Source of the DNA: a virus
IMG/VR virus record: IMGVR_UViG_3300032117_000139
Span: 1 to 25,657 of that record
Strand: one strand, 5' to 3'
DNA: 25,657 nucleotides
Under the pieces are notes generated by a model. It was not told where the DNA came from and made no database searches. It worked only from the letters and a program-made list of their open reading frames with translations. The position numbers were made by a program, and so were the translations under genes. Numbering within the stretch: the first letter of the stretch is position 1; the number at the start of each line of letters is the position of its first letter. Positions 1,074 to 25,413 of the stretch are shown here, in pieces.

Positions 1074-2087
1074 CTAGGCCTTAACGATCTTACCAAGACC
1101 ACGTGGGTTAAGAACAATCTCGGATACGAGCTCGTCCATTACCCAACCCTTGTGGAACTTCTCAGGGGTGTGGTTCTCTTCAACATCGAGTGAGTACATA
1201 ACTGGGAATACACCGAGGAACTCTGGTGAAGGAGTCATGTAAACTGTACCCTGAGGTACTTCGATTGAACGCTGAACTTGGAAGCCACCGAATTGAACAA
1301 TACGCTCACCGGCAACAACACGGTCCTTGAAGGCCCAACCAGTTTGGTTGATGTCCCACTTGTAAAGGTCACGGTAGTCGATTGGGTTGAACAATAGACG
1401 ACTGGCCTCCAACTGGTGGACTTCAATCAATGCTACAAGGTCGTACATTGAGTCAGGCGTAATGTATCCTGACAATTCGTTGACGATGTGGTTAGGTGAA
1501 ACGGTGTGGTTAGGGTCAACAGCGTAGTTGTTGATAGCAGCCTCAAGTACAGTGATAAGACGAGCGTCTTCCTGCATCATGATTGCTTGCTTACTCATGT
1601 CCTGAGCATATTCTACGATGTTAACACGCAGGTACCAGAGGTCTTCCTTCTTGATCTGAGGGAAGGTAGCGATACGGAACAAACGGACTGGAACCTTCTT
1701 ACCTTCGAAAGGAGTCACACGGACTTCACCTTCGTTACCGGAAAGAATGTAGGCCTGGCCATATTCGTCCAAAACGTCATACATAACTGGTACACCAGGG
1801 GTTAGTGGGTCTTCCAGAAGAACGTTACGGGTCATACCCTGGTAACGAAGCTTAAGCTGGATAGGACCAATCATACCCTGACCAAGACGAACCATGTAGT
1901 TGTCCTTGTCGGAAAGAATTGAAGCAAGACGACGCTGCTTCTCTTCACGACTAGCTGCGGTGCGGCCAGTAGCAGTCTTTAGACGCTCCTTGGCTTCAAT
2001 AATGTCCGCGACGTAATCGTCCGAACGCTTTGCGGTACGTGGAGCAAGAAAATCTGCTACACCCGCGTTAGGGGTCAATGAACTCAT
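1074..2087 (-). CDS. Major capsid protein
   Basis: This 337-aa protein has the size, composition and place expected of an HK97-fold major capsid protein: after portal, prohead protease and a decoration-type gene, and followed by a strong hairpin. Residues 1-60 are highly charged and helical (Lys/Arg/Glu-rich, including RRLAS at 52-56), as expected for an N-terminal delta-like or scaffold region. From about residue 64 the chain becomes a mixed alpha/beta domain rich in aromatic and Gly/Pro turns. A long helical stretch around 155-190 (EYAQDMSKQAIMMQEDARL) resembles the spine helix region, and the C-terminal part (about 260-337) is beta-rich. The ribosome site AAAGGAATC precedes ATG. Assignment rests on gene order and sequence character; I cannot align it here. 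Confidence 0.8.
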   Translation of the reverse strand: MSSLTPNAGVADFLAPRTAKRSDDYVADIIEAKERLKTATGRTAASREEKQRRLASILSDKDNYMVRLGQGMIGPIQLKLRYQGMTRNVLLEDPLTPGVPVMYDVLDEYGQAYILSGNEGEVRVTPFEGKKVPVRLFRIATFPQIKKEDLWYLRVNIVEYAQDMSKQAIMMQEDARLITVLEAAINNYAVDPNHTVSPNHIVNELSGYITPDSMYDLVALIEVHQLEASRLLFNPIDYRDLYKWDINQTGWAFKDRVVAGERIVQFGGFQVQRSIEVPQGTVYMTPSPEFLGVFPVMYSLDVEENHTPEKFHKGWVMDELVSEIVLNPRGLGKIVKA

Positions 2088-4219: not shown

Positions 4220-4866
4220 TGTAGCTCCTTGTTGTCTTCGGGGTTTTGACCCTCTGTTTGATTCTGGAAATATTCGTCCTGAGACACTTGCTGTAAAAGA
4301 TCTTTACCGCGAGTAACTTTGTCGCTGGAAGCCACCTGGTCGTTGTCGAGACTAGTACCAGGGCCCGGCTTAGAACTTTTCTTGTTCTTCAGCTTATCTT
4401 TTTCTTCTTTGATTTTTTCACTGGCCTTGCTTTTGGCATCGGCACTGGGAATAAATCGTTGTTTCTTATTCTTTAGAAGCTTAGGACTAATACCCGTAAA
4501 CTTCGGTCTCTTGTGATTGAGATCCATTGGTGGTTCTTCGTACATGCACTTCGGATTCTCACATTGAAGATTGAATCCTCTTCTACCGCACTGTGGGCAC
4601 TTGCTATCCTGGTCACTCTGGGCCGTTGGAAACATATCAACAAAAGAAAGACTTCTAAAAGCCGCCTTCTGCTGAATACCCTGTGATTCTTGCCAATCTT
4701 TAATAGCCGACATAACTTCTGGACTAATAAAAGCACAATCTTCACAAACACCACTTCGGTAATTGGTCCCGTTACACTGCGGACAATCACCCAATACAGT
4801 AATTTGGAGTCTAATGACTTCCATGGCTTCTTTACGAAGCTCTTCAGAAACCTTTAGAATCGGCAT
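4216..4866 (-). CDS. Double zinc-ribbon protein of the head module (216 aa)
   Basis: I place the start at ATG 4866, which shares one base with the protease stop codon (TAATG coupling). A TTG ten codons earlier would extend it but lacks a clear ribosome site. The protein has a four-Cys ribbon C28-x2-C31 / C41-x2-C44 and a second group C90-x2-C93 with C102 and C107, both typical of structural zinc sites. Between them is a FVDMFPT segment (75-81) resembling the FTKMF motif found in other proteins of this window. Residues 120-180 are Lys-rich, and the C-terminus is acidic and Gln/Asn-rich. No enzyme motif is seen. Context between protease and scaffold/capsid genes argues for a head assembly or internal head protein. 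Confidence 0.75.
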   Translation of the reverse strand: MPILKVSEELRKEAMEVIRLQITVLGDCPQCNGTNYRSGVCEDCAFISPEVMSAIKDWQESQGIQQKAAFRSLSFVDMFPTAQSDQDSKCPQCGRRGFNLQCENPKCMYEEPPMDLNHKRPKFTGISPKLLKNKKQRFIPSADAKSKASEKIKEEKDKLKNKKSSKPGPGTSLDNDQVASSDKVTRGKDLLQQVSQDEYFQNQTEGQNPEDNKELQ

Positions 4867-11251: not shown

Positions 11252-11758
11252 TTAGTTCTTAACTACCAATTCGTAGTCACCCTTGCGCTCTACACTAGCA
11301 GTGCGGTCATCCCAGATAACTGCGAATTCTGCATCACCAACAGCTACAACTGTACCAGAAATCTTGGTACTAGCGGTCTTGGCATAAACACGTGAGCCTA
11401 CAAGAGTATCACCCTTGAGCTTGGCTAGAACACCAAAGGTGGCATTCTTGTGAGCCTGCTTATTGTTAAAGCCTCTGGCCTGCTTCTTGGCCTGAACTAG
11501 CTCTCCATAAGGAGCTGTTTGTTGAGCTGGGTTAGTGTCGTCCTTACCGTGAGCTTGGCCTGAAGCATTGTCTCGGTCAATTTCAGCTGCCCAGTCCTTA
11601 CGCCAGTCCATCTCGGTCTGCCAGTTGCGCTGAGCGTCATTACTGTTTTCGTCCATAAAGTCATTGTCCATTTGCTGACCCTGTGGGATAAAGTCGGCAT
11701 CAACGGGACTTGGGCCGTCAAACATGTCGGCAATTCTAATATTCAAACGTGGTTCCAT
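11252..11758 (-). CDS. Hypothetical protein with C-terminal SH3/KOW-like domain (about 168 aa)
   Basis: Three starts are possible in one frame: TTG 11782, ATG 11773 and ATG 11758. I prefer 11758 because a purine run (GGAAAGAGAAACC) precedes it; the other two lack a ribosome site. Near the N-terminus is IADMFDGPSP, resembling the FTKMF-type motif of neighbouring proteins. Residues 25-95 are acidic, Asp/Asn/Gln-rich and likely disordered. The C-terminal 60 residues (LVGSRVYAKTASTKISG, then a DAEFAVIWDD strand and YELVV) look like a small beta-barrel of SH3/KOW type and contain KTAS and RTAS. No catalytic motif is seen. Confidence 0.65.
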   Translation of the reverse strand: MEPRLNIRIADMFDGPSPVDADFIPQGQQMDNDFMDENSNDAQRNWQTEMDWRKDWAAEIDRDNASGQAHGKDDTNPAQQTAPYGELVQAKKQARGFNNKQAHKNATFGVLAKLKGDTLVGSRVYAKTASTKISGTVVAVGDAEFAVIWDDRTASVERKGDYELVVKN

Positions 11759-13870: not shown

Positions 13871-14277
13871 TATTCTGCCTTCTTGTTAACATTAAAAATA
13901 CGAGTGAAGTTCTTCATTTTGAGTACAGGCTTTTCATTACGCTTCTTGGTACGGTTAATGGCCTCTTCAGCATAGGCTGATTCTAGTCCACCTGGTAGAG
14001 AAGTATTATCTGTACTTGTAGGGGCTCCAAATGCCGTACGATCTTCATGTAGTCCTAGAATATCTTTTTCTAGGTGGGGAAGACAGTTTAAGCAGACTGT
14101 ACTAAGAACACCATAAGTGTGATAGGGATCAACAAGTGCCTTTTCTGCAGAGCACTGGACGGGCTTTCCCTTATCGTCAGTGTATAGACCTCTAGTTTGG
14201 CACTCTGAGCCTAATTCGGCAGCACCTTCAGTGAGTCTGTCTGAGCCTTTGGTGGCCTCGGCAATTACCTTGAACAT
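13870..14277 (-). CDS. Small Cys-containing protein ending in an FTRIF motif (135 aa)
   Basis: The start ATG at 14277 has no clear ribosome site, so it probably depends on read-through from the 601-aa gene 19 bases upstream. The protein contains C26, C42, C62 and C65 (CQTRGLY...CSAEK...CLNC), a plausible single zinc site, then a polar middle. The last 20 residues are basic and include NFTRIFN at 123-129, the short motif shared with the C-termini of the 601- and 350-aa proteins. Function is unknown. The stop shares a base with the next start (TAATG), indicating translational coupling to the 682-aa gene. Confidence 0.65.
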   Translation of the reverse strand: MFKVIAEATKGSDRLTEGAAELGSECQTRGLYTDDKGKPVQCSAEKALVDPYHTYGVLSTVCLNCLPHLEKDILGLHEDRTAFGAPTSTDNTSLPGGLESAYAEEAINRTKKRNEKPVLKMKNFTRIFNVNKKAE

Positions 14278-14296
14278 AGTATATTACTATTAAATA

Positions 14297-16102
14297 CTAT
14301 TGGTTCTTGGGACCAAACATCTTGGTAAAGTTAGGAACTCGACCGGCTGGAGCATTAGTGGGATTGGCTGCACCAGCTCCACCCATACCACGTCGACGAA
14401 TATCATTAAAGGTACTCTGACGAGACTGCCAGTCTTGGTTATCTGCACCTGGTGTAGCTGGTTGAACAACTTGTGTACGACCGGCTTCATGATCTGTCCC
14501 AAAACTACCAATGCGTGACTCTTCACGGAAACCTACTGGAACTTCTCCTGAGCCATCTGGGAGGGTTCCTCCACCAAACATGCGAGTAAGTCGAGTTCCA
14601 CCCTTGGTCTGCTTACGGAAGGCACCGTGGATAATTGGAAGAATCTTACCACTACCGGCTGCACTTGGGTCTAGGTGACTACCAAATTCTGGGTTAAAGT
14701 CGGCACGAGGTTGGCCACCTTCAGTGTATTGACTTGAACTACCACTAAAGTCACGAGGACCGTGCTCTAGTTGGTAGCTGTCCTTGGCCTCACTACGTGG
14801 ACCACTAGGAGCATCTTCACTATAGGCGTGAGTTGGAGTACTGCGGTTTGTAGTATAACCTACAATCTGGCCAACATTCTTGAACTTAGGAGCCATCTTC
14901 TTGCGAGCGTAACCCATAACTCGAACAAAAGCACCCTGGTCCTTGGTACTCTCGGCATCGTGTAGTGGGTGCTTGCCATTAACATCATAACCAAATGTCT
15001 GAGCATGCTGGTCTAGGAAGTCATGAATATTGGCACTATTACCTTCTGGTAGAGCGGTAAGGTGGTGTGCAGGAACAAAACCAGTAGTTTCTGGAGCTTC
15101 ATAGTGTTGCATTTCACCATTAGCACCTTCTACAATATTAGCTGGGTAGACGTGATTGCCCACTCCTTCTGGGTTCATTGCTCCAATTTCAGCAACATGG
15201 TAGTGACGACCACCACACTGGCAACCGGCATATCCTTCGTGGGTACTACCATTGCAGTTTACATCACTAAGGTCTGGGCTTCCACCCTTTGTAGCTCCAA
15301 GCAGACGACCAAGAGTAACATCCTTGTGACTTCCATCTGGGTTAAACTTGTGGATTAGGACGTAATCGCCTTCCTTGTGCTTAGCAGCTACAGATGGATC
15401 AGCAAGTGTCTGTTGGTGTTCTGGGTCATTAACAATACGACCGAGTTCGCTATTTGCTCCACCCTTGGAGATAAAGTGACTAATGATCTGGTTAGGACTG
15501 TAAGCCATGGCCTCACGAGGAGCAAAACGCTCTTCAAGTGCTGCCATCTTTTCTACGGCCTTACTGGACTTCTTCAAGTGCTTACTGCAAATGTCTAGGT
15601 GACCACGAACATCATCTGCTCTTGAACCATCTGTAAGAGTGGCTCCACATTCATCACAAGTAGTGTCCTTTTGACCGGCATGTGCAGTCTTGGCCTGGCA
15701 ACCAGCACCTGATGGGCAGTGCCATCCCTTACCGGACTTGTGGCCTGTAGCACCCTTGCAAGTTGCACAAGAGCCTACATTATCACCAAAATTGTGGACA
15801 TCAGTACTGGCAACTTTGCAACTAGTGCAGTTAGCGTGACGAATCTTCCACTCTTCGTGAAGTGCACGGACTAGCTTGAACTTACTATCACTTACAGTAG
15901 CCATCTTTCGACGAGCAGCACTCTCAATATCACTTTCTACCATTTGGCAGCGTAGTGCAAATTCCTTGTCAGTGTGTGCAAGGAAGAGAAATTCACCGGT
16001 CTTGGTAAGAACTTCATGCTTGGCCGTTACTAGATTCTTACCGGCAGTCTTGGCCTGGTAAGCGGCATTGAGTGAGTCATCGTAGTCAAAAACTGATGTC
16101 AT
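14297..16102 (-). CDS. Large Cys/His-rich protein of unknown function with FTKMF C-terminus (601 aa)
   Basis: Residues 1-90 are helical and charged (a possible helical bundle: KHEVLTKTGEFLFLAHTDKE). Then comes a zinc-rich block: C92-x2-C95, C112-x2-C115, C129, C135, C149-x2-C152, H168 and C172. Residues 244-350 look like an SH3-like barrel (DYVLIHKFNPDG, VTLGRLLGA, HYHVAEIG, VYPANIV, GFVPAHHL) with a Cys insert (C283, C294, C296). The C-terminal third is Gly/Ser/Pro-rich and probably disordered. It carries LTRMFGG at 505-511 and ends NFTKMFGPKNQ. No catalytic motif is identifiable. The gene follows a short intergenic region after the tRNA block and leads a run of related-looking genes. Confidence 0.75.
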   Translation of the reverse strand: MTSVFDYDDSLNAAYQAKTAGKNLVTAKHEVLTKTGEFLFLAHTDKEFALRCQMVESDIESAARRKMATVSDSKFKLVRALHEEWKIRHANCTSCKVASTDVHNFGDNVGSCATCKGATGHKSGKGWHCPSGAGCQAKTAHAGQKDTTCDECGATLTDGSRADDVRGHLDICSKHLKKSSKAVEKMAALEERFAPREAMAYSPNQIISHFISKGGANSELGRIVNDPEHQQTLADPSVAAKHKEGDYVLIHKFNPDGSHKDVTLGRLLGATKGGSPDLSDVNCNGSTHEGYAGCQCGGRHYHVAEIGAMNPEGVGNHVYPANIVEGANGEMQHYEAPETTGFVPAHHLTALPEGNSANIHDFLDQHAQTFGYDVNGKHPLHDAESTKDQGAFVRVMGYARKKMAPKFKNVGQIVGYTTNRSTPTHAYSEDAPSGPRSEAKDSYQLEHGPRDFSGSSSQYTEGGQPRADFNPEFGSHLDPSAAGSGKILPIIHGAFRKQTKGGTRLTRMFGGGTLPDGSGEVPVGFREESRIGSFGTDHEAGRTQVVQPATPGADNQDWQSRQSTFNDIRRRGMGGAGAANPTNAPAGRVPNFTKMFGPKNQ

Positions 16103-16125
16103 GTTGGATCTGGCTCCTGTATACT

Positions 16126-16141
16126 GTTGCTAGGTAGCAAC
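16126..16141 (-). promoter_or_regulatory. Perfect inverted repeat in the 94-bp gap upstream of the 601-aa gene
   Basis: The sequence GTTGCTAGGTAGCAAC is palindromic except for its centre: seven complementary bases on each side, or six with a four-base loop. It lies 24 bases upstream of the 601-aa start. No T-run follows, so termination is unlikely. An operator for a dimeric regulator or a 5' mRNA hairpin are both possible. The remainder of the gap (16142-16196) contains an AT-rich stretch (GTTTACGTAATAAG on the minus strand) that might be a -10 region, but I see no convincing -35. Confidence 0.4.
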
Positions 16142-16196
16142 GCTGAACTTATTACGTAAACTATCTCTGTAAAACACAATGCTTTACATGGTGAGA

Positions 16197-16481
16197 CTAG
16201 TCTTCTTTTTCTTTTAATTCGGGTATTTCCGGGTGATGCTTTATAATGTGATCGAGCTTTCTATGTAGCTCTTCATTGCCGGCATGAACATGTCTCTTGA
16301 CAAAAGACTCAATGGACTTACGAAGTGGAGGGTAGACGAGACTAGTGACTACGGCTACAATAATGGCCCACCATACACCGGCACCAATATTGGTTTTAAC
16401 CGGCTCCCAGGCCATAGTGGAAATAAATTCGTGTCTAGCGAGATCTAGATAGTGAATTAGTAGATGATAGTACCAATGCAT
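16197..16481 (-). CDS. Single-pass membrane protein downstream of the tRNAs (94 aa)
   Basis: The start at 16481 is chosen because GAGGAGG lies five bases upstream. The longer reading frame extends into tRNA-Gln and is not credible. Residues 33-50 (GAGVWWAIIVAVVTSLVY) form one membrane segment, preceded by an aromatic/His amphipathic stretch and followed by a basic, His-rich cytosolic-type helix (RKSIESFVKRHVHAGNEELHRK). It ends in an acidic tail. This layout could suit a holin partner or spanin-like accessory, but no lipobox or signal peptidase site is visible. Function unknown. Confidence 0.7.
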   Translation of the reverse strand: MHWYYHLLIHYLDLARHEFISTMAWEPVKTNIGAGVWWAIIVAVVTSLVYPPLRKSIESFVKRHVHAGNEELHRKLDHIIKHHPEIPELKEKED

Positions 16482-16526
16482 AAAAGCCTCCTCATTACAG
16501 AGAGGACTTCTGGGGGATTTTACAAG

Positions 16527-16598
16527 TTCCCCAGCCACGGTTCGAACGTGGAATGACAGATTCAAAGTCTGTAGTGTTGCCGGTTACACTACCGGGGA
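16527..16598 (-). tRNA. tRNA-Gln(TTG)
   Basis: The minus strand folds as a complete cloverleaf: acceptor TCCCCGG/CTGGGGA (one G-U pair), anticodon stem ACAGA/TCTGT with loop CTTTGAA giving anticodon TTG, and T-arm CCACG-TTCGAAC-CGTGG. The discriminator is A and CCA is not encoded. It begins one base after tRNA-Asn, so both are processed from one precursor. It would read CAA, and by wobble CAG, glutamine codons. Confidence 0.93.
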
Positions 16599-16599
16599 T

Positions 16600-16674
16600 T
16601 GGCTCCCTGGGATGGATTCGAACCACCGACCAAGTCATTAACAGTGACCCGCTCTGCCGCTGAGCTACCAGGGA
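16600..16674 (-). tRNA. tRNA-Asn(GTT)
   Basis: Acceptor TCCCTGG pairs perfectly with CCAGGGA, the anticodon loop is CTGTTAA (anticodon GTT), and the T-loop is TTCGAAT. The discriminator is G and the CCA end is encoded. It starts four bases after the stop of the 94-aa ORF and ends one base before tRNA-Gln, so the transcript mixes message and tRNA. Confidence 0.94.
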
Positions 16675-16678
16675 ATAG

Positions 16679-16963
16679 TTACTTCTTAAAGTGCAACTTG
16701 CTCACTACTTCATGGAATTCATTTTCCACTTTAGAGAACTCGGCAAGTATATCGCTCTTTATTTGTTCAGGATTTTTAAGAAGATCAAAGTCTTTCTTGG
16801 CCTCATTAAAATAGTTTTCAACTTCACTCTTATAGGCCTTAAGTGAATAGATGAAACTTTGAATCTGATATTTGTCCTGCTTGAGATTATTAATGGTTGA
16901 AATTATATTGCCAATTCCAGCAACACCAGCAAGACTAGCTGTTAGATCAGTGATATTAAACAT
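16679..16963 (-). CDS. Small helical protein whose ATG overlaps the CCA end of a tRNA (94 aa)
   Basis: The only ATG compatible with a tRNA-free product is at 16963-16961; its A is also the last base of the encoded CCA of the upstream tRNA-Thr. A longer in-frame reading would be translation of tRNA sequence and is rejected. The protein has a hydrophobic N-terminus (about 6-22, LASLAGVAGIGNI type) and then a long charged helix (30-92), suggesting a membrane-associated coiled coil. No ribosome binding site is available outside the tRNA body, so translation may need an unprocessed transcript or leaderless initiation after tRNA cleavage. Coding status is supported by helix-like composition only. 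Confidence 0.55.
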   Translation of the reverse strand: MFNITDLTASLAGVAGIGNIISTINNLKQDKYQIQSFIYSLKAYKSEVENYFNEAKKDFDLLKNPEQIKSDILAEFSKVENEFHEVVSKLHFKK

Positions 16964-17037
16964 GGCGATCTTGATGGGATTTGAACCCACGACCTTCGCA
17001 TTACAAAAGCACTGCTCTACCGCTGAGCTACAAGACC
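16963..17037 (-). tRNA. tRNA-Thr(TGT), second of a tandem pair
   Basis: Acceptor GGTCTTG/CAAGATC (one G-U pair), D-arm GCTC/GAGC, anticodon loop TTTGTAA giving TGT, T-loop TTCAAAT, discriminator G, and encoded CCA. The anticodon stem is weak: GTGCT opposite TGCGA gives only two Watson-Crick pairs, one U-G, a G-A at its base and a U-U next to the loop. Bases 8-48 are identical to the first tRNA-Thr, so they are duplicates with diverged acceptor and T stems. The final A is the A of the next gene's ATG. Confidence 0.88.
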
Positions 17038-17041
17038 TTAG

Positions 17042-17113
17042 AGCCCGAAGAGGGATTCGAACCCCCGACCTTCGCATTACAAAAGCACTGCTCTACCGCT
17101 GAGCTATTCAGGC
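17042..17113 (-). tRNA. tRNA-Thr(TGT), first of a tandem pair
   Basis: Acceptor GCCTGAA/TTCGGGC (one T-G pair), anticodon loop TTTGTAA (TGT), T-arm GGGGG-TTCGAAT-CCCTC, discriminator T, no encoded CCA (CTC follows). It has G1-C72 and C2-G71, which match bacterial threonine identity elements better than its neighbour does. It shares the same mismatched anticodon stem. It starts about four bases after the start site predicted from the upstream promoter-like sequence, and four bases separate it from the second copy. Confidence 0.9.
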
Positions 17114-17123
17114 TGGCGGACAG

Positions 17124-17151
17124 TTTATACACATGTCCGTAGGTGTGTGAA
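17124..17151 (-). promoter_or_regulatory. Probable sigma70-type promoter for the tRNA block
   Basis: On the minus strand TTCACA (17151-17146) and TATAAA (17129-17124) each match five of six consensus bases, separated by 16 bases. The predicted start, about seven bases on, falls four bases before the first tRNA-Thr. The site lies just after the stop of the putative holin gene, where a separate tRNA promoter would make sense. A GGACA/TGTCC inverted repeat overlaps the -10 region and could be an operator. Confidence 0.45.
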
Positions 17152-17155
17152 CCTA

Positions 17156-17500
17156 TTAGTTCTTCTTTGGTGCAGACTTCTTAGTTGCTGCCTTGGCCTT
17201 TGCAGGAGCCGGAGCAGGGGTTGGAGCTGGTGCAGGAGTTGGCTCTGGAGTTACAACTGTCTTGGGCTGAGGAAGTGTACCGAGCAACCAACCAAGGTTT
17301 GGATACTTCTTTTCCAAAGCATTAATGGCTGTAAAGTAGAGACCTGAAGCCACTGGCACGAGAGCTGCAAATGTACCGGCGTGGAAACTACCCCACTTGG
17401 ATACTCCCCATGAAATTGCAGAACCAACAACGGCCGCTACAAAAGCACGGAAAGTATTTCTTACCTTGGTTGTTACTACTGGTGTAGGTGTCTTTGACAT
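17156..17500 (-). CDS. Putative holin (114 aa)
   Basis: Two hydrophobic segments (residues 17-33, RAFVAAVVGSAISWGVS, and 42-61, GTFAALVPVASGLYFTAINA) are joined by a short loop. An LGWLLGTLP stretch follows, and then a Pro/Ala/Thr linker and a strongly basic end (KAKAATKKSAPKKN). Two-helix proteins with a charged tail of this type are annotated as holins in actinobacterial phages, and RNTFRAFVAAV resembles those N-termini from memory. Holins form membrane holes that let the endolysin reach the wall. The papain-fold gene lies two genes upstream, which is compatible with lysis. The ribosome region is AGAAAGAAAAAT. Alternatives are another small membrane protein. Confidence 0.6.
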   Translation of the reverse strand: MSKTPTPVVTTKVRNTFRAFVAAVVGSAISWGVSKWGSFHAGTFAALVPVASGLYFTAINALEKKYPNLGWLLGTLPQPKTVVTPEPTPAPAPTPAPAPAKAKAATKKSAPKKN

Positions 17501-17513
17501 ATTTTTCTTTCTG

Positions 17514-17669
17514 TTAGTCCTTGAACTTCAAGGATACTTGGACATTATTGACTTGAGTACGAAGGCTATTGGCCAAACCAGTAATGGTCTCTGTAATTTC
17601 TTGACTTGCGAGAACATCACTCTGTTCATTCATAGCTTCATAATTGATTGAAACTGTAATTTTCTTCAT
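17514..17669 (-). CDS. Small hypothetical protein (51 aa)
   Basis: A 51-codon frame fills the gap between the papain-fold gene and the holin. The ATG at 17669 is preceded by GGGATT, a modest ribosome site. The protein begins KKITVSINYEAM and ends VQVSLKFKD, with a polar helix in between (SQEITETITGLANSLRTQ). This strand-helix-strand pattern with no low complexity supports a real small folded protein. Function is unknown. Confidence 0.6.
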   Translation of the reverse strand: MKKITVSINYEAMNEQSDVLASQEITETITGLANSLRTQVNNVQVSLKFKD

Positions 17670-17700
17670 AATCCCATGATAATGAGTTATTTATAAAAAA

Positions 17701-18255
17701 TCAAGATACCTTATTGCTCTTGGTAGTATCAATATTGAATGCACTTGCAAGATCTGCAGGCATCATTTGATATGGATTACGATTAAAGATAAATCCACCG
17801 GCCCATAGACTTTGTGCTACTACTGCACTACAGATCATACTATTGTTCAATGAGAATTGAAGCTTAATACCGGTAAGTAGTTCTGTAGCAATACTGGCAA
17901 TTGTGAACCAGCCGTACTTATCTTTTACAAAACTCTTGCAAGCGGCAACTGCCTGCTCTCTACTCTGCTTATTGAGTTTTGTATTCACGAGGTAGTATTC
18001 TACATCCTTATACTCATCAATGTGGCTATATCTAACTCCACGACCAACTGCTTCTACAATAGTGCCTTGCTCGTCTACAATCATTGCTGCGTGGTTCCAG
18101 TAAGCAAAAGGCTTCATAGCACCATGATATCTAACAAACTGTCCAAAGCGTATAAACTTGGCTAAGATACCGGTAGTTGAAACCAGGATAAAGTCCCCTG
18201 GGTTAAACTTGGCAGGCTCTTGCCCAGCTTGGTATACTTTAAAACTAGTCGTCAT
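17701..18255 (-). CDS. Permuted NlpC/P60 (YiiX-like) papain-fold enzyme (184 aa)
   Basis: The frame is open further upstream through a Met/Thr repeat. I place the start at 18255, where it overlaps the upstream gene by 11 bases, with a GAGG 12 bases away; ATGs at 18264 and 18267 are alternatives. The domain begins FNPGDFILVSTTG (17-29), a strand typical of permuted NlpC/P60 proteins. Candidate catalytic residues are H55 in WNHAAMIVD, E68 in TIVEAVGRGV, and C142 in SMICSAVVAQSLW. Such enzymes cleave amide or acyl bonds in peptidoglycan or lipids. No signal peptide or wall-binding repeat is present. It could be a lysin, a virion hydrolase or a protein-modifying factor. Three genes before the tRNAs, next to the holin, a lysis role is plausible. 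Confidence 0.75.
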   Translation of the reverse strand: MTTSFKVYQAGQEPAKFNPGDFILVSTTGILAKFIRFGQFVRYHGAMKPFAYWNHAAMIVDEQGTIVEAVGRGVRYSHIDEYKDVEYYLVNTKLNKQSREQAVAACKSFVKDKYGWFTIASIATELLTGIKLQFSLNNSMICSAVVAQSLWAGGFIFNRNPYQMMPADLASAFNIDTTKSNKVS

Positions 18256-19402
18256 CGTCGTCATCATCCTCGTCATCATCGTGGCCGGCTTCATTATCAT
18301 AGGCAAGATGCATTAGTACAGGGTCACGGTGATTCTTGGAACAAAATCTATTTCCCCAACTATCCTGGGTAATGGTATTGCCATTTTCATCAAGGTTACC
18401 GGTTCCTAGTTGACTAGCACCAGGAAGTCCTTGACCACTTTTGGGTTCACCATCTTCTGGTTCTATACCTTTAAGACTACCGGTTGCTCCAGTGCTAATA
18501 AGAGGGGTTCCATTACTAGGAATTGTACTCTCTTCTCCAATTTCTGAAAACCAACTATTGGTGGCACTATCTAGTCCGGTACCAGTATTATTTAAGGTCT
18601 TGCCCTTACCATTTTCATCCCAAGCAGTAGGTCCTCTGGTCTCTAAAGGAGCGTTATTGACATTATCGATCTTGGTCTTTTGGTCAAAGGGTTGACCAAA
18701 TTGGCTACCACCGGCATCATTTTCTGTTGCATAACGATATGCAAATACTTTGGGGAATTCATCCACTACAGTTGCCTTGCTATCTAAATCTTGAGGCCCT
18801 ACAGATTCTGTTGCTTGATCGTCTCCACCAAAACCTTCAGTAAAGGTAGGTACACCTTCACCTCTTAGGGTACCTGGATCAGCAAACTTAAGCCAACTAC
18901 TTCCACCCTTGCTCATACCTAGTCCAAATACTCCAACTGTTTCTTTATGTCGAATAGGGGGTCCATCGGGACGATCAGCATTATCGATCTTATACTCCAT
19001 TTGAGGGACTTGCTTTTCTCCGTCCTCACGAGTATTCTCTTTTAGAACTTCTCCACCAGCAAATGCATTGGCTTCCATTCCATCGAGTTGGCCGGTACCT
19101 AGTTCCTGCTTATCTGCGTTTACCTTAGGTAGACTAAGTATCTTTAACCGTCTTAGACTCTCACCGGTAGTAACACTTTCAATAAAGTAGTTCCAGAGAA
19201 GTTTATCTCTTACTAGAGTGGGAGTTAGTGCATCTCCAACTGTAACTGTAATAGTCAAGATATTCTTGTCTACAGTGACTTCAGGTTCGGCATCTAGGCC
19301 TTCAAATTGAGCAATGAGTGAACGAACAATACCATCACGATTGTCCTCAGTCACATAAGGAACAAATTTACATTTGAAACTTCTTCTAGATACATCACTC
19401 AT
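18245..19402 (-). CDS. Unknown protein with poly-aspartate C-terminus (385 aa)
   Basis: Residues 1-90 form a small alpha/beta domain (FKCKFVPYVTEDNRDGIV, then ILTITVTVGDALTPTLVRDKL). The remaining 300 residues are Gly/Asp/Glu/Asn/Pro-rich with few hydrophobics and look disordered, with repeated short GxGxLD/GTGLD-like pieces. The chain ends HDDDEDDDDDDD. The DNA coding this tail is a GAY-type repeat that also supplies the candidate start codons of the next gene in another frame. No family is recognised. Poly-Asp tails can bind cations or basic proteins, but that is speculation. The start ATG at 19402 is preceded by AGGAGTACT, a good ribosome site. Confidence 0.7.
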   Translation of the reverse strand: MSDVSRRSFKCKFVPYVTEDNRDGIVRSLIAQFEGLDAEPEVTVDKNILTITVTVGDALTPTLVRDKLLWNYFIESVTTGESLRRLKILSLPKVNADKQELGTGQLDGMEANAFAGGEVLKENTREDGEKQVPQMEYKIDNADRPDGPPIRHKETVGVFGLGMSKGGSSWLKFADPGTLRGEGVPTFTEGFGGDDQATESVGPQDLDSKATVVDEFPKVFAYRYATENDAGGSQFGQPFDQKTKIDNVNNAPLETRGPTAWDENGKGKTLNNTGTGLDSATNSWFSEIGEESTIPSNGTPLISTGATGSLKGIEPEDGEPKSGQGLPGASQLGTGNLDENGNTITQDSWGNRFCSKNHRDPVLMHLAYDNEAGHDDDEDDDDDDD

Positions 19403-19442
19403 AGTACTCCTAGGTTATAGACTATGTGAATCTAAAGAAGTT

Positions 19443-20297
19443 TTACAGGTTAGGGTACTTGAGCTTCATAAAGTGCTCAAGGCTAGCACCTTCATAACGT
19501 CGACAGAGATAGTCGAGACTAACAAACATAGGGTCATAGCTACCATCTTTAACTTGGTGCTTGACTACAATTCCACGCCAGTGAGCATTACCTTGTGGGC
19601 CCTTGTAGTCCTCATCATGAAGATAACAGGCTCCAGCCACTAGACCATGTTGACTTCTACCAGCAACAAAACGAAGTCCATACATGAGTGTCTGCTGGTG
19701 ACCCATACTAAATGTGTGACCAATAGTCTTGAGTCGAGTTTCAATATTCTGGCCACCATAGGGTTTACCAGTCATTGGATTATAGAAGAAGTGAGAATAA
19801 CGAACACCGTCTAGATCGATTACTTCTTGATATTCGTGTACTGTCCACCCATGCTTTTCAAAAAGACTATCGTCTAGTTTGAGCATTCCTTCCAGTTGAG
19901 GATTTGCATCAATAGTTCGATTAATTCGATCTTCGTGGTTACCCTTAGTAAGGTGCTTGGGTGGTAGCCAAAGCTTTTGCTTGGTCTTTCTACGCTGATC
20001 ATTAAAGGCCTTAAAGGGTGCATTTAAAACTTCAAATGCTTCATCACCGGCATCTAGGTCATCTTGATAACGACGACCTTCCATCTTTTTCTTGCCTGCA
20101 TCCCAGTTAGAGAGACTAGGCATATCCCAGTGGTCACCAATGTGAATAACTTTGATATTCTTATTGTGATAGTTATCGACAATAAAGTTACCAATCCAGG
20201 ATAGATGATCTGTAGGTACACCCGGCTTGGCCTGGGTATCCGGAATCATAATATGTGTTACGGGTAAATCTAGTACTTCCGACACTTCTTCAGTCAC
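19443..20297 (-). CDS. Calcineurin-like metallophosphoesterase (284 aa)
   Basis: The metal-binding motifs appear in order: D20 in MIPDTQAKPG (D-x-Q instead of D-x-H), HIGDHWDMPSLS (51-62, with D55), GNHEDR (119-124), then H-containing GH motifs near residues 194-200 and 217-227 (SQHG, YLHDED). The pattern GDHWDMPSLSNWD plus MEGRRY (72-77) is one I recognise from phage metallophosphoesterases. The enzyme hydrolyses phosphomono- or diesters with two metal ions; substrate unknown. The first motif has Gln where many members have His, a variation I recall from other phage homologues. It is separated from the 385-aa gene by 40 bases. Confidence 0.85.
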   Translation of the reverse strand: MTEEVSEVLDLPVTHIMIPDTQAKPGVPTDHLSWIGNFIVDNYHNKNIKVIHIGDHWDMPSLSNWDAGKKKMEGRRYQDDLDAGDEAFEVLNAPFKAFNDQRRKTKQKLWLPPKHLTKGNHEDRINRTIDANPQLEGMLKLDDSLFEKHGWTVHEYQEVIDLDGVRYSHFFYNPMTGKPYGGQNIETRLKTIGHTFSMGHQQTLMYGLRFVAGRSQHGLVAGACYLHDEDYKGPQGNAHWRGIVVKHQVKDGSYDPMFVSLDYLCRRYEGASLEHFMKLKYPNL

Positions 20298-20311
20298 TAT
20301 ATCTCCGATTA

Positions 20312-20461
20312 TTAGGCTTCGGAACCGTCATCGTCAACGTCATTACCGGACTCTTCGACCACGTTTCTAGGATCGCTATTCTTCTTAGCTTCCTGCTCTC
20401 GTTCGTCAGCAATTTTAATAGTTCTAGTCCCAGCTTGGGGATTTTGACTATACTTAATCAT
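20312..20461 (-). CDS. Small acidic hypothetical protein (49 aa)
   Basis: A short frame starts at ATG 20461, one base after the stop of the 95-aa gene (TAA-T-ATG), with AAAGG seven bases upstream. It begins MIKYSQNPQAG, contains a charged helix (KIADEREQEAKKN), and ends in an Asp/Glu tail (GNDVDDDGSEA). No known motif. Coupling to the previous gene supports expression. It precedes the metallophosphoesterase by 14 bases. Confidence 0.55.
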   Translation of the reverse strand: MIKYSQNPQAGTRTIKIADEREQEAKKNSDPRNVVEESGNDVDDDGSEA

Positions 20462-20462
20462 A

Positions 20463-20750
20463 TTAATGCCTTTCCTTATGTCCATCAACTTTTTTATTTA
20501 AAGTTTCATGAAGTACTTTAATGGCTTTATCTTTATCTCTGGGAAGTGGACCCTGCCAGGTACTAGAGTTATTTCCAGCAATCTTGATCTGGCCAGTATG
20601 TCTTCCATTTTCTCCGACAAGAAGAACTTCAAATTTGAGTTCACACTTGTCACAGGACCAATTGAACATATTCTGTTCGGGTAGTTCGGGTTCCCAGGTC
20701 TCTGGTTCCGAATCATTGAAGGTTATTCCTTCAGGTAAATCAAATGACAT
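20463..20750 (-). CDS. Small hypothetical protein with one CxxC (95 aa)
   Basis: The acidic N-terminus (MSFDLPEGITFNDSEPETWEP) is followed by a CDKCELKFEVLLVGENG segment (33-49) that looks like a zinc-knuckle-like strand pair, although only one CxxC is present. A later helix is rich in Lys (DKDKAIKVLHETLNKK). Function unknown. Its stop is one base from the 49-aa start, and its start lies three bases after the preceding stop, so this is an operon-like run of small genes. Confidence 0.6.
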   Translation of the reverse strand: MSFDLPEGITFNDSEPETWEPELPEQNMFNWSCDKCELKFEVLLVGENGRHTGQIKIAGNNSSTWQGPLPRDKDKAIKVLHETLNKKVDGHKERH

Positions 20751-20753
20751 AGA

Positions 20754-20984
20754 CTAGATACAGTTAAGAGCAAACATACCCAATTGCTTGAGGTAGTCTT
20801 CTACTTTCTTGTCATGAATTTGAGCAATAGTGGTTAGTGAACTAAGTAGAATTCCCGTTAGTGCACTAAATAGCTCAATAGGGTCACTTTCGAGGACCAT
20901 AGCATAGGCTTCATCCTCTTGCTCACTAATTATTGCTGTTAAGATGGCTACCACACGACTAATGTTCTCTGCAGTAGTGTCCAT
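20754..20984 (-). CDS. Small helical protein coupled to Dps (76 aa)
   Basis: The start at 20984 is preferred over the longer frame because AGGAG lies seven bases upstream and the ATG shares its A with the Dps stop (TAATG). The protein is almost entirely helical and hydrophobic, with Asp/Glu breaks (NISRVVAILTAIISEQEDEAYAM, then PIELFSALTGILLSSLTTIAQI). It has one Cys near the end. It could be a small helical bundle or a membrane-associated protein. Translation is expected to follow Dps closely, suggesting joint use, but no family is recognised. Confidence 0.65.
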   Translation of the reverse strand: MDTTAENISRVVAILTAIISEQEDEAYAMVLESDPIELFSALTGILLSSLTTIAQIHDKKVEDYLKQLGMFALNCI

Positions 20985-21493
20985 TATTTTTCTCCTAGTG
21001 AAGCCTTTAAGAACCAATTCCACTTCTGGTGTTGATCAATTCTTTCAGCAATAAAATTAGCAACACCCTGTTCATTGGCGTCATTAGCAATTATAAATGC
21101 TGATTTAAGATTCTCCAAGTACTTACTATTCATCTCTACAAACTTACGAGTAAGTACTAGAGGATCTACACTATCAAGTCCAGATTCATCAATAGATGAT
21201 AGACTCACTAATTCACTCATCTTAAATGGAGCAACTGAACCTAACTTGACAATATTCTCGGCAATGGGATCAATGTGCTCATAGATGTCATCTACAATTT
21301 CATCATAGAACTTGTGGTACTCATAAAAGTCACTACCTTTTAGATTCCAGTGGAAACCATGGATAGTGTGATAGAGGACATAGGCCTCAGCTAGAGTTAC
21401 TCTTAGAGTGTCAGCAAGAGAAGTTGCAGTCTCTTCTGGTTGGGGTGCTGGTTCTTCAGCAGCAACTACTCTAAAACCGTTCCATTCATTCAT
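20984..21493 (-). CDS. dps: Dps-type ferritin-like DNA-protection protein (169 aa)
   Basis: The whole core matches the Dps family: TLAEAYVLYHTIHGFHWN (33-50) followed by LKGSDFYEYHKFYDEIVDD and IYEHIDPIAENI. The five ferroxidase residues are present with family spacing: H48, H60, D64, D75 and E79. Dps forms a 12-subunit shell that oxidises and stores iron and can coat DNA, guarding it against peroxide. The N-terminal 25 residues are Pro/Glu/Ala-rich and not basic, so DNA binding through a Lys-rich tail is not obvious. C-terminal helices follow, ending KASLGEK. The gene sits in a run of unknown phage genes and is coupled to the 76-aa gene by TAATG. A weak ribosome site precedes the ATG. Confidence 0.88.
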   Translation of the reverse strand: MNEWNGFRVVAAEEPAPQPEETATSLADTLRVTLAEAYVLYHTIHGFHWNLKGSDFYEYHKFYDEIVDDIYEHIDPIAENIVKLGSVAPFKMSELVSLSSIDESGLDSVDPLVLTRKFVEMNSKYLENLKSAFIIANDANEQGVANFIAERIDQHQKWNWFLKASLGEK

Positions 21494-21495
21494 GA

Positions 21496-22206
21496 CTAGA
21501 GCCAGTTGACTGAATCACCAAAAGCGTCATTTACAGAAGTCTCATTGAAGGTACTGGCCAGACGAACTTTCTTGGCAGTAACTTCACGCTTGGCTTCTAC
21601 AACATCCTTCTTGGTCCTACGGCAGATCTCAACATTATCAACAAAGTTGTCAATAATACTGGCTCTCTTGACTACATCAAGAATAGGAAGGGTCTTTTGC
21701 TCTACATAGTATACTGCAGCTTCACGAGTGCTTAGTTGGTCATTGAGTAGGCCAAGGTGTTGGTCTTCTACCCAAATCTCTGCACCGGCAGTTACAAAGT
21801 TAATCCAGTCAGCATCACGAAGTTCATCTTCTACTGTCTTGGCTGCACGGAAAAGGAAACTACCATCATCTTCACCAAGATCACGAGTACCAGCAGTGGT
21901 CATACGATAGGTACTGGCCACAGTTCCACCAGGAAGGCTTTGTAGGTACTCTTCGGTGTCGAAGTCTACATAGTTACTGGCCAAACGCTCTAGTTGGTCT
22001 CGCTCTTCATCCAATTCAGTGATGTAGCTTGCATAACGCTGAAGCTCCAACTCTGTGGTATTAGGACTACTAGCGGCCATGCGCATGTCACCTAGGATTT
22101 CTTGGATGCGATCTAGTCGATTGAAGATGCTGTCAGATGAGCCGTTAAACCATTGAGTGTCGGCCACTACCTTACCAGCTGTGTGTAGAAAATTGTCGTA
22201 GTCCAT
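21496..22206 (-). CDS. Hypothetical helical protein with K/R-x-A-S sites (236 aa)
   Basis: The protein is mostly helical and charged, with likely coiled-coil stretches at about 55-82 (LELQRYASYITELDEERDQLERLA) and 185-220. No cysteine pairs are present (single Cys about 194). K/R-x-A-S occurs four times: RYAS, RLAS, KRAS and RLAS. No enzyme motif. The ATG at 22206 is preceded by an AGAAAGAAAAGATT leader of the same type as before the holin gene. The stop is two bases from the Dps start. Function unknown; the A-S sites group it with the head-type proteins described in the findings. Confidence 0.7.
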   Translation of the reverse strand: MDYDNFLHTAGKVVADTQWFNGSSDSIFNRLDRIQEILGDMRMAASSPNTTELELQRYASYITELDEERDQLERLASNYVDFDTEEYLQSLPGGTVASTYRMTTAGTRDLGEDDGSFLFRAAKTVEDELRDADWINFVTAGAEIWVEDQHLGLLNDQLSTREAAVYYVEQKTLPILDVVKRASIIDNFVDNVEICRRTKKDVVEAKREVTAKKVRLASTFNETSVNDAFGDSVNWL

Positions 22207-22267
22207 AATCTTTTCTTTCTATGTCCTTATTAAATACGAGTAGTTTGAACTTGAATTACATTTAATT

Positions 22268-22879
22268 CTAGAAGCAGGGAGTTCCGGCTTTGTGATTACC
22301 ACCACAACTAGTGCAGTAGCCCATTCCGAGATCATCTTCGTCTTCGTGAGTATTAAAGAATGAAGGGTGAAAGGCAGAGGCCAATGGAGTAATACCACTG
22401 CCTACATCTTGATTATTATTGACCTCTACACCATCTTCAGTTTCGGTGGTACTAGGAACAAGTCTATCGAGAGGATTACTAGCCGTTCTTTCTTCCTTGG
22501 GCTTATCCTCTTCAGTGTAGTCCATATCTCCAACAATTTTAACTGGAGCTTCAGTAAAGTAGGCAATACTCTCAACAATACGAGCAGTATGTGCTCTCTT
22601 TTCTTCCATATAGGCTGATTGATTGGCTTTTTGTTGAGCACGCTTTTCCTGCTCTGCATTACCGGGTGTAAAAGTATAGCATTTAGCTTCTGCACCTGGG
22701 CCCTTCCATCCTGGAAGTCCATCTACACTGCAGCTCTCGGCTCCACCAGCAGCCAACTTAAACTCAAAGCCCAGTGAAGAACTCTTGAGAATATTACGGC
22801 AGGCAAAACAAAAGATCTCTTCTCCGGCACTAGAGATCTTGGTAACAGTGGAACCTGAACAGAGAGGGCAATCATTCAT
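22268..22879 (-). CDS. Zinc-ribbon protein (203 aa)
   Basis: The ATG at 22879 follows the upstream stop by one base (TAA-T-ATG) and is preferred to an in-frame TTG four codons earlier. The N-terminus is a zinc ribbon: C4-x2-C7 (CPLC) and C24-x2-C27 (CFAC). Residues 40-140 are polar and partly helical and contain RTAS at 131-134. The acidic region 143-185 precedes a C-terminal C189-x2-C192 with C202 (CTSCGGNHKAGTPCF). Nothing identifies an enzyme. The double-ended zinc layout with a disordered centre fits a scaffold or adaptor. Confidence 0.7.
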   Translation of the reverse strand: MNDCPLCSGSTVTKISSAGEEIFCFACRNILKSSSLGFEFKLAAGGAESCSVDGLPGWKGPGAEAKCYTFTPGNAEQEKRAQQKANQSAYMEEKRAHTARIVESIAYFTEAPVKIVGDMDYTEEDKPKEERTASNPLDRLVPSTTETEDGVEVNNNQDVGSGITPLASAFHPSFFNTHEDEDDLGMGYCTSCGGNHKAGTPCF

Positions 22880-22880
22880 A

Positions 22881-24323
22881 TTATTCACCAAAAAACTTTG
22901 AAACTACATCTGTGGGGAATTCTAGCTTAGAAGCTACAGTTCTATTGGGTAAGAATAGCTTGGGCTTAGTAGAAACATCTGGGGTAGTAGGACCATTTGG
23001 AAGACTAGCGTGTAGGTGGTGCTCAGAGTCATTGCCTAGAGTTTCACAAGCCTTACATACTGCCTCTGAACCCTTTTCTGCTTGCTCACCCTGATTCATA
23101 AACATCATGTTCTGCATAAGCATTTGCTTATTCATTTGGTGCTGTTGACGTTTGGCAGCTTCATCGGCCATTAGCTGCTGGCCGAATGCTTTTGGGTCTG
23201 CAAGAGATTCTCGAACACTGGCAGTTGCCATAGAGTGGCCATCAGTTAGTTCATTAAGTCCACGATCAGCATCACCCTGCATTAGATCACGAGGAGTGTA
23301 GTTACTATTGGGCTTAATGTCATAAAGAGTTTGTGGAACAGACTGCTGAGGTACTTGGTGGTAGAACTTGAACTGTTCATAACCATGGAAGTAGTCATCA
23401 CTAAGTTCAGCTAGATCTTCATCTAGCTCCTTACTGGACTTGGCATCTTCATATCCACGGTAGTAAAGAGCAGAGTCACTGGCTTCACGAGTAAAGGCCT
23501 CAAGATAGTCATCTGTACTGGCAAGCTTAGTCTCTTCATCACCGGTCTTGATGACATCACCGTCTACAGTGTCACCTTCTTCAATCTTACCGGCAGCAAG
23601 AGTAAAGTGATCATCGGCATTACCATTAGGTACAAAGGTGTGGGGACCTTCTTGGGTATAGTCAACTACTCCCTCAGCATCAGAGCATCCTGGAAATCCA
23701 CAGTGTGCAGTTCGAGCATGTTCAATACTCTCTGGAACATAATACTGTTCACAACTTGCACACTTGCTTTCACCGTGTTCCATAATCCATGCAACTTTGT
23801 TGAAACTTGCAGTAGGCATCATTATTCCTGTCTGGGGCTGTCCGGCCTGGGTAGTAGGAGTAGGGATAGTACTTGGTGGTACTGTAGGAGTAGGAACTGA
23901 TCCAGCACTAGCACCAGCACTGCCTACACCGGCATTGGGCATAATAGGAGCTGGAGTAGGAGCAGCAACAGCAGCAGGAGTAGCCATAGGGCTGTCTGTA
24001 CTGGCCTGGTGAAATTTTGAATTTAGTCTTGTAGGCACTGCATCCTCCACAGGAGTATTAAAAGTCTGGTCAATGCCGAGTTCTGCAAGAGGCCCAACCG
24101 GCACTGGCTTCTTCATTAAATCGGCATGTTGTGTTGTATTGTCTAGTCCATTGTCTTCTAGGTTAGTGGCATTATCTTGAGCAATTCTCTGCTTAAGTTT
24201 GCCGATAACACTTTTAACATTGGTGGTACCAGGAAAAGAAAAGCTTTCACCCTCTTCTACCTTACCAAGTGCTTCAAGATCGTCATCAGCAGATCTATTG
24301 CCTAGTCCACTATCTACTGACAT
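22881..24323 (-). CDS. Large Cys-containing protein with Pro/Ala/Thr linker and SKFFG end (480 aa)
   Basis: Residues 1-110 are charged and helical. Residues 114-165 form a Pro/Ala/Thr/Gly-rich flexible linker. A zinc motif follows: C188-x2-C191, H202, C208, C213 (CASCEQYY...HCGFPGC). Residues 240-325 are acidic and contain KLAS and REAS. The region 385-415 is Gln/Met-rich and helical (KRQQHQMNKQMLMQNMMF), with C423-x2-C426 just after. The protein ends TDVVSKFFGE, close to the FTKMF endings of neighbours. An AGAGGGATC ribosome site precedes ATG. No family is recognised. Confidence 0.72.
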   Translation of the reverse strand: MSVDSGLGNRSADDDLEALGKVEEGESFSFPGTTNVKSVIGKLKQRIAQDNATNLEDNGLDNTTQHADLMKKPVPVGPLAELGIDQTFNTPVEDAVPTRLNSKFHQASTDSPMATPAAVAAPTPAPIMPNAGVGSAGASAGSVPTPTVPPSTIPTPTTQAGQPQTGIMMPTASFNKVAWIMEHGESKCASCEQYYVPESIEHARTAHCGFPGCSDAEGVVDYTQEGPHTFVPNGNADDHFTLAAGKIEEGDTVDGDVIKTGDEETKLASTDDYLEAFTREASDSALYYRGYEDAKSSKELDEDLAELSDDYFHGYEQFKFYHQVPQQSVPQTLYDIKPNSNYTPRDLMQGDADRGLNELTDGHSMATASVRESLADPKAFGQQLMADEAAKRQQHQMNKQMLMQNMMFMNQGEQAEKGSEAVCKACETLGNDSEHHLHASLPNGPTTPDVSTKPKLFLPNRTVASKLEFPTDVVSKFFGE

Positions 24324-24360
24324 TAGATCCCTCTGACGTTCTCATGTTACTAAAATGATC

Positions 24361-25413
24361 TTACTGTGGTTTTACAATTGTTGGAAACATTTTAGTAAAA
24401 CCTTGGAGCTTGGTAGGAGCAGTTCTCTTTAGAGCTCCTTCATGAGTATTGTCATTTAGACGAGCACTAACATAGGCAGCAGGGTCATGATTCTTATTAA
24501 CTGCATCCCAATATTCGGCATGAGTTACACCATTTTGTAGGCCACGAATATAGTGCTCATCACCTGTAGGTTCTATGGCACCAGTGGTATTATTAGGCTT
24601 TAGAAACTTACCCAGGGACTGCTTGGCTTCTTTATGTGTAGCCCCACCTTCACGATAGGTAGCATAGTGATCGAGAATTGATCTAGCAGCAAGCTTATTA
24701 GCTCTAGGATTAACCTGACTATTATTTTGACCATGCTTGACAATATCCACTATGTCATTAAAGTCTTCATGTGCTTCCATGCCTTTAGCTCCTGGGGCAT
24801 TCCTTAGTCTGGCATAAGTGTCTAGGGGGCTATATGACCGAGATTCTTCGTTGTCGGTACCCACTGGAGTATGTTGAAAGTCTATTCTAAAAGGGTGTAG
24901 CATTCTAGCGGCATCCATCACTTCTTCGTGAGTGGCTCCACCAATTCTTGCACTAACATAGTGTGGAAGATTTCCCGGACTATAAGAGCTTGAATACTGA
25001 TCTCGTTCGGCCGGATGCATTCGACAAGCGGCTCTATGAGCTCGAGCTTGTTCAGGACTCATACGTTTAATGTCATTAGGGTTGTAGTGGCCAACATTAT
25101 GTGCACGATTGATATCACTTGGGTCTACTCCGTGATCCCAACCTTCAGCATATAATGCAAGTGGAACTCGAGGATTTAACTCTTGAATACGACTTACTGG
25201 AAAATTAGTACCTGCTCCAGTATTACGAATCATGCGAGTAACGCTGGATACACCCTCAGTGAGATAACGTTGGTGTCTCTGCTCTGGATCTTGCTCTCCA
25301 TTAGGCAAACGATCTAGTTCACGAAGTTTATCTACAGTGAGGCCATTACGAGCCCACTCTAGAAGACTACGATCATCCAAGTTTTGGATATCTAGCTTGA
25401 CATCTCTTGTCAT
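24361..25413 (-). CDS. GATH-repeat protein with FTKMF C-terminus (350 aa)
   Basis: Four copies of a short helical repeat, Y-x3-[RL]-x2-[GN]-x-T-H-x-E, are visible: 152-168, 250-266, 288-304 and 314-330 (best cores GGATHEE and GGATHKE). Copies are separated by unequal spacers, so this is not a strict tandem array. I recall similar GATH repeats in unidentified actinophage proteins, without a defined function. Residues 1-60 are helical and charged (LLEWARNGLTVDKLRELDRL). Only one Cys (130). The tail ends GFTKMFPTIVKPQ, the exact FTKMF found in the 601-aa protein. The start codon directly follows the upstream stop (TAA-ATG). Confidence 0.72.
   Translation of the reverse strand: MTRDVKLDIQNLDDRSLLEWARNGLTVDKLRELDRLPNGEQDPEQRHQRYLTEGVSSVTRMIRNTGAGTNFPVSRIQELNPRVPLALYAEGWDHGVDPSDINRAHNVGHYNPNDIKRMSPEQARAHRAACRMHPAERDQYSSSYSPGNLPHYVSARIGGATHEEVMDAARMLHPFRIDFQHTPVGTDNEESRSYSPLDTYARLRNAPGAKGMEAHEDFNDIVDIVKHGQNNSQVNPRANKLAARSILDHYATYREGGATHKEAKQSLGKFLKPNNTTGAIEPTGDEHYIRGLQNGVTHAEYWDAVNKNHDPAAYVSARLNDNTHEGALKRTAPTKLQGFTKMFPTIVKPQ

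Follow-up and report, generated by a model that had tools for sequence, protein, structure and literature searches.

We analyzed a 25,657-nucleotide stretch of viral DNA (hereafter the window), a fragment of the IMG/VR record IMGVR_UViG_3300032117_000139 in which nearly all genes lie on the minus strand, and found that three of its head-cluster proteins, of 350, 601 and 135 amino acids (aa), carry a similar short peptide near the C-terminus: FTKMF in the first two and FTRIF in the third (Table 1). Judged from the comparisons described below, the similarity is a genuine but narrow, lineage-specific match on non-homologous proteins. Our tentative explanation is that FTKMF/FTRIF is a docking peptide on a flexible tail that would connect the three proteins to one common partner, this partner being more probably a fast-evolving protein than the major capsid protein (MCP). 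Coincidence is almost as likely.

A scan of viral contigs with the MCP yielded 80 related contigs, several of them 105–133 kb long. Genes were called in 24 contigs, including the window, which gave 1951 proteins in total; among these contigs, G001 is nearly identical to the window (the same phage) and G002 is a sister. By sequence, the window is part of an actinobacterial myovirus that is kin of mycobacteriophage cluster C; its portal is about 35–40% identical to those of cluster C/E3-type myoviruses from Mycobacterium, Gordonia and Rhodococcus. The 350-, 601- and 135-aa proteins had no match in Pfam or PHROGs, and searches of viral contigs with the 350- and 135-aa proteins found, beyond the contigs already known, just contigs resembling G006. 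Likewise, tblastn searches of isolate phages with the 601-, 480- and 516-aa proteins of the window found no matches.

The window proteins contain three copies of the strict motif F[TS][KR][MI]F, each at most 14 residues from the C-terminus, whereas shuffling expects about 0.0008 such tail copies for this motif, which was picked post hoc. The 350-aa protein ends in LQGFTKMFPTIVKPQ, and a linker rich in Gly, Ala and Pro precedes the tail VPNFTKMFGPKNQ of the 601-aa protein. AlphaFold2 (AF2) modelling of the 350-aa protein from just two sequences gave a mean predicted local distance difference test score (pLDDT) of 64, and residues 336–350, with pLDDT values below 50, lie outside the folded body. 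Among the 1951 proteins, the strict motif is found at the C-terminus elsewhere only in the orthologues in G001 and G002, and a scan of viral contigs for the pattern F[ST]KMFGPK returned the same two contigs and one unrelated internal match only. A looser pattern, [FILVM][STAG].[LMI]F, is present at the C-termini of 5 of 95 cluster families compared with 3 of 410 others, which is suggestive only. Because the codons of the three tails differ and the flanking DNA is unrelated, the similarity sits at the protein level; the same two observations rule out a recent DNA duplication of the 3΄ ends. A first-pass annotation of this DNA had proposed one common C-terminal tag on four proteins. The endings that it quoted for the 601-, 350- and 480-aa proteins exist in the translated minus-strand open reading frames, and the 135-aa protein contains NFTRIF as quoted but ends in KNFTRIFNVNKKAE rather than at FN. 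The shared C-terminal peptide holds for the non-homologous 350-, 601- and 135-aa proteins but not for the 480-aa protein, which we consider separately below.

Table 1. Positions of the tails, the sequences set apart from them and other head-cluster features in the window
Feature	Position	Strand	Basis or remark
FTKMF, residues 339-343 of 350-aa protein	24385..24399	minus	coding sequence (CDS) 24361-25413, tail GFTKMFPTIVKPQ
FTKMF, residues 592-596 of 601-aa protein	14315..14329	minus	CDS 14297-16102, tail VPNFTKMFGPKNQ
FTRIF, residues 124-128 of 135-aa protein	13894..13908	minus	CDS 13870-14277, tail KNFTRIFNVNKKAE
PTDVVSKFF, residues 470-478 of 480-aa protein	22890..22916	minus	CDS 22881-24323, ends PTDVVSKFFGE
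LTRMF, internal, residues 505-509 of 601-aa protein	14576..14590	minus	LTRML in G002
IADMF, near N-terminus of SH3-like 176-aa protein	11720..11734	minus	part of conserved peptide
FVDMF, internal, residues 85-89 of 226-aa zinc-ribbon protein	4630..4644	minus	orthologue comparison
N-terminal helical domain, residues 1-100 of 601-aa protein	15803..16102	minus	alignment, AF2, Foldseek
RMTTAS...DDWLMTLN, C-terminal tail of 516-aa scaffold-like protein	2672..2740	minus	17 aligned orthologues
MCP	1074-2087		phrog_2522, E 3e-109
Head maturation protease, 221 aa	4866-5531	minus	phrog_18299, E 6.6e-24
Portal protein interrupted by intein	6114-9617		phrog_2833; Pfam LAGLIDADG_3 and intein splicing

Comparison with the sister contig showed that the 601-aa orthologue in G002 (about 75% aligned identity) has the tail VPSFSKMFGPK, in which the codons for F, K, G and P have changed synonymously, and that the linker beside the tail is more variable than F[TS]KMFGPK. 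The 135-aa orthologue in G002 keeps FTRIF with nearly unchanged DNA. The sole distant orthologue of the 350-aa protein, in G006 (33% identity), ends in GTFDISSLF, which can be aligned with the 350-aa tail as Phi-[ST]-x-[ML]-F.

We also compared tails between the neighboring positions of the 601- and 135-aa proteins (hereafter the 601 and 135 slots). The two genes are separated by 19 bp in the window, and the 135-aa gene overlaps that of a 682-aa protein. In G026, the 601 homologue ends in DLGDLFGDSNE and the adjoining 149-aa protein, a weak homologue of the 135-aa protein (E = 0.004), ends in DLSNLFD; in G020, the two neighbors end in EFKRQMLNCRGEAE and ELIRRQLEAQGEGE. Thus, in three lineages the two tails resemble each other while the sequences differ between lineages (NFTKMF/NFTRIF in the window, DLGDLFG/DLSNLFD in G026 and EFKRQML.../ELIRRQL... 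in G020). For 14 lineages, the sum of scores of matched 601- and 135-slot tails was 196, compared with 156 ± 15 in permuted genomes (P = 0.009).

However, several results weigh against a shared docking function. The conservation is backed by one sister contig only, G002, which does not include the 350-aa gene. The strict tail was not found in any other related contig fetched beyond G001 and G002; in G006, the 601 orthologue has the ending ADIVNRLLGKE and the 135 orthologue the ending SEFIKGIINKTKAGE, and FTRIF is not present in the 135 orthologue of G033. The motif is accordingly not conserved in the orthologues of G006, G033 and G026, the outcome that the first-pass annotation had named as contradicting its proposal, although it is conserved in the sister. 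As for the slot pair, it was singled out after inspection and tested afterwards, 10 of the 14 lineages exhibited no matching between its tails, and no general excess of shared tails was found across all within-genome gene pairs of the family. Given this order of observation and test, and the lack of a general excess, we treat the matching of these slots over lineages as suggestive.

These results leave considerable room for coincidence, in which three of about 30 short hydrophobic tails would be alike while each serves its own protein, as a helix end or within its own complex. We compared 29 tails of unrelated families in a test that does not presuppose the motif, asking how often some seed has two best matches with scores at least this high. 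The P values, 0.003 with 6-mers and 0.015 with 5-mers, count in favor of the shared tails, but they are no lower than this and are uncorrected for window length. Pairs of tails scoring at least 26 arise about once per 800 tail pairs, and the loss of the strict motif outside the sister contig also agrees with coincidence. On the other hand, the restriction of the C-terminal strict motif to the three proteins and their nearest orthologues, and the retention of the 601 tail despite synonymous substitution in G002, are not readily expected from it. We regard coincidence as a serious contender, nearly as likely as docking.

If the tails do dock, the short linear motif at the C-terminus would bring the 350-, 601- and 135-aa proteins to their common partner while the head assembles. 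The three shared tails, their different codons, their conservation in G002 and their place in the head cluster are observations; from these we infer that the tail binds something, that the partner is common and that the proteins are packaged. Since the tails swap between lineages while the MCP is nearly invariant, the capsid shell is disfavored as the partner, and docking to the capsid wall or the portal is a weaker form of this explanation. A fast-evolving cluster protein, for example the 682-aa neighbor or some variable region within the scaffold-like core, would be preferred. With a partner as conserved as the MCP, one peptide should have been retained, whereas the tails are exchanged; a variable partner such as the 682-slot protein beside the 601/135 pair would fit better. 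If the tails dock cargo, they would provide a sequence handle for recognizing, among many unknown proteins, those that cluster-C-like actinophages load into their heads, as well as a tag for loading foreign proteins.

A further possibility is that the 601- and 135-aa proteins form one complex in which their tails make equivalent contacts, for instance on the 682-aa product, and that the match of the 350-aa tail arose by chance. The gene arrangement is compatible with such a complex, and tail matching is strongest between these adjacent slots in the window, G020 and G026. However, the exact FTKMF is common to the 601- and 350-aa proteins and not to the 601- and 135-aa proteins, and the G006 orthologue of the 350-aa protein also has a Phi-S-x-L-F tail (ISSLF). 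We regard this explanation as unlikely.

The first-pass annotation had likened the tag to the capsid-targeting sequence (CTS) of phage T4, which is N-terminal and is removed by the prohead protease. Accordingly, FTKMF would bind the inner capsid wall, the portal or the scaffold and take cargo into the prohead. The genes concerned lie in a head cluster with the portal, protease, scaffold-like protein and MCP, and a sequence resembling a protease site is enriched in this cluster. Like the CTS of the internal proteins IPI–III and Alt, FTKMF is a short peptide common to otherwise diverse proteins of a phage head-assembly system, and the set to which the tagged proteins belong is variable, as is that of the T4 internal proteins, which are highly diverse and have the conserved CTS alone in common (PMC3012670). 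In contrast to the CTS, all three strict copies are located at the C-terminus, and no [KR]xA[STG] site, itself a candidate motif only, was found at a distance of 80 residues or less from any of the three tails, whereas the CTS has an adjacent cleavage site; moreover, FTKMF is confined to one lineage. Because neither the position nor the adjacent cleavage site agreed when compared, the tag does not belong to the T4 CTS kind, although it could work similarly. The MCP is also 94–97% identical in most relatives in which the tails are wholly different, and the tail of the putative scaffold reads DDWLMTL, not FTKMF. T4-like targeting of this type is thus very unlikely.

The cargo-loading peptides of encapsulins are short and C-terminal, occur on unrelated cargo and bind an HK97-fold shell on its inner face. 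Their C-terminal position matches that of FTKMF, but here the shell protein is near-invariant while the tails vary, unlike in encapsulin cargo binding. These peptides have been reviewed (PMC7355545).

The other sequences that had been assigned to the motif are better explained within their own protein families. The 480-aa protein ends in a family-wide peptide, P-[ITVL]-D-[VI]-[IVLF]-x-[KN]-F-[FL], which is present in most of 14 aligned orthologues; these range from 237 to 480 aa and differ in their middles. In the test that does not presuppose the motif, the 480-aa tail adds 11 points, a random level. VVSKFFGE is therefore a separate conserved tail, and a motif common to four proteins is ruled out. 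The second copy reported within the 601-aa protein, LTRMF, is present in the window but reads LTRML in G002, for which reason we reject it as a conserved copy. As for the two looser forms, IADMF belongs to an N-terminal peptide, LNI[KR][IV]A[DE][LIM]F, that is found in most SH3-like orthologues, and FVDMFPT is internal and variable, with orthologues reading FTDYF, FVDML, FLDAM, FADML and others. We also ruled out co-variation of IADMF with FTKMF (M versus L), since the sister with FSKMF has IADLF. A motif of the sliding-clamp type was dropped, the resemblance being loose only.

A more robust lead than the tail tag is a candidate protease site, [KR][TLVIMY]A[ST]. This pattern occurs 23 times in the head-cluster proteins of the window, compared with 2.7 ± 1.7 expected by shuffling (about 9-fold), and 14–18 times in the clusters of four relatives, compared with about 2.5–3.5 expected; outside the clusters, these genomes show no excess. 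Among cultured relatives, E3 contains 7 copies, Pupper 5 and Skog 6, compared with about 1.4 expected. Examples are residues 144–147 and 481–484 of the 516-aa protein, 1051–1054 and 1126–1129 of the portal and 135–138 of the SH3-like protein. On this sequence evidence the pattern is a candidate maturation-protease site, with the 221-aa protease as the presumed cutter; copies in folded conserved domains, such as those of the MCP and the SH3-like protein, need not be cut. The motif gives a prediction of the head proteins that undergo processing and of their cutting sites, and could be tested in Rhodococcus phage E3 and in Gordonia phages Skog and Pupper.

We further found that A[ST/G] often precedes the conserved C-terminal peptides of the cluster. 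In the 516-aa protein, the pattern GR[ML]TTAS...DDWLMTL is kept in 17 orthologues, with TTAS about 15 residues upstream of the tail; a 236-aa protein has RLAS or KLAA ahead of an NWL tail, and many orthologues of the 480-aa family have T[VA]A[SG]K ahead of theirs. Herpesvirus scaffolds are cleaved at Ala-Ser, and herpes UL26 is a protease–scaffold fusion. From the position of its gene between the protease and the MCP, the 516-aa protein is probably a scaffold, and with its conserved hydrophobic C-terminus it resembles herpesvirus scaffolds in both respects. It is this protein, and not the FTKMF proteins, that has a conserved hydrophobic tail after A-S as in the herpesvirus scaffold/assemblin, a likeness for which no sequence homology is claimed; its cleavage at A-S is a prediction from motif enrichment. 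Rhodococcus phage E3 gp77, an 895-aa protein annotated as a prohead protease, ends in RIAAATATTNDVADDIYLHL, which is related to the 516-aa ending and is consistent with a protease–scaffold fusion as in UL26. In herpesviruses, both the scaffold and the protease bind the MCP through their C-terminal ends (PMC8539031). The protease of the giant phage SPN3US cleaves behind A-X-E, favoring Ser at P1΄, and nearly all propeptides are N-terminal (PMC10052503); a KxA/S specificity combined with C-terminal tails would differ from that pattern. The candidate cleavage motif bears on the common origin of the maturation proteases of phages and herpesviruses. It would be a doubtful step to combine both parts into one system, in which lineage-swapped C-terminal docking peptides with a variable partner would be the counterpart of the T4 CTS, beside a head protease that cuts at [KR]-x-A/[ST] as herpesvirus assemblin does at A/S.

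The 601-aa protein has an N-terminal helical domain that is conserved in homologues of 102–826 aa, the remainders of which differ and have been exchanged. The AF2 model of this domain has pLDDT values above 90 for most of residues 20–90. Searches of the PDB gave no match, and the best three Foldseek matches among viral models were uncharacterised proteins of the phages Shifa (Mycobacterium) and Finch (Rhodococcus) together with M9MUC8 (524 aa), with E-values of 0.07–0.16 and template modelling scores of about 0.45. The top matches are all from actinobacteriophages as far as named. M9MUC8 may be gp68 of Rhodococcus phage E3, an assignment made from protein length alone; the gp68 gene lies just upstream of the E3 portal, and hhalign gave a weak match between gp68 and the domain (E = 0.0095, probability 4%). 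In G023, two paralogues lie side by side.

Portals of 1168–1582 aa are also found in G017, G024, G026 and G032, compared with 769–794 aa in others. The head cluster of the window includes a gene for a ferritin/Dps-like protein (20984–21493), which occupies the same place in most relatives. In G003, positions 75256–80568 of the contig encode a 1770-aa protein with many imperfect PE[IV]PF[AT]RLFR repeats. In G015 (90719–96929 of the contig) and G014 (31272–37571 of the contig), a putative metabolic gene block, noted from gene order and termini, lies between a C92 peptidase gene and the 601-slot gene.

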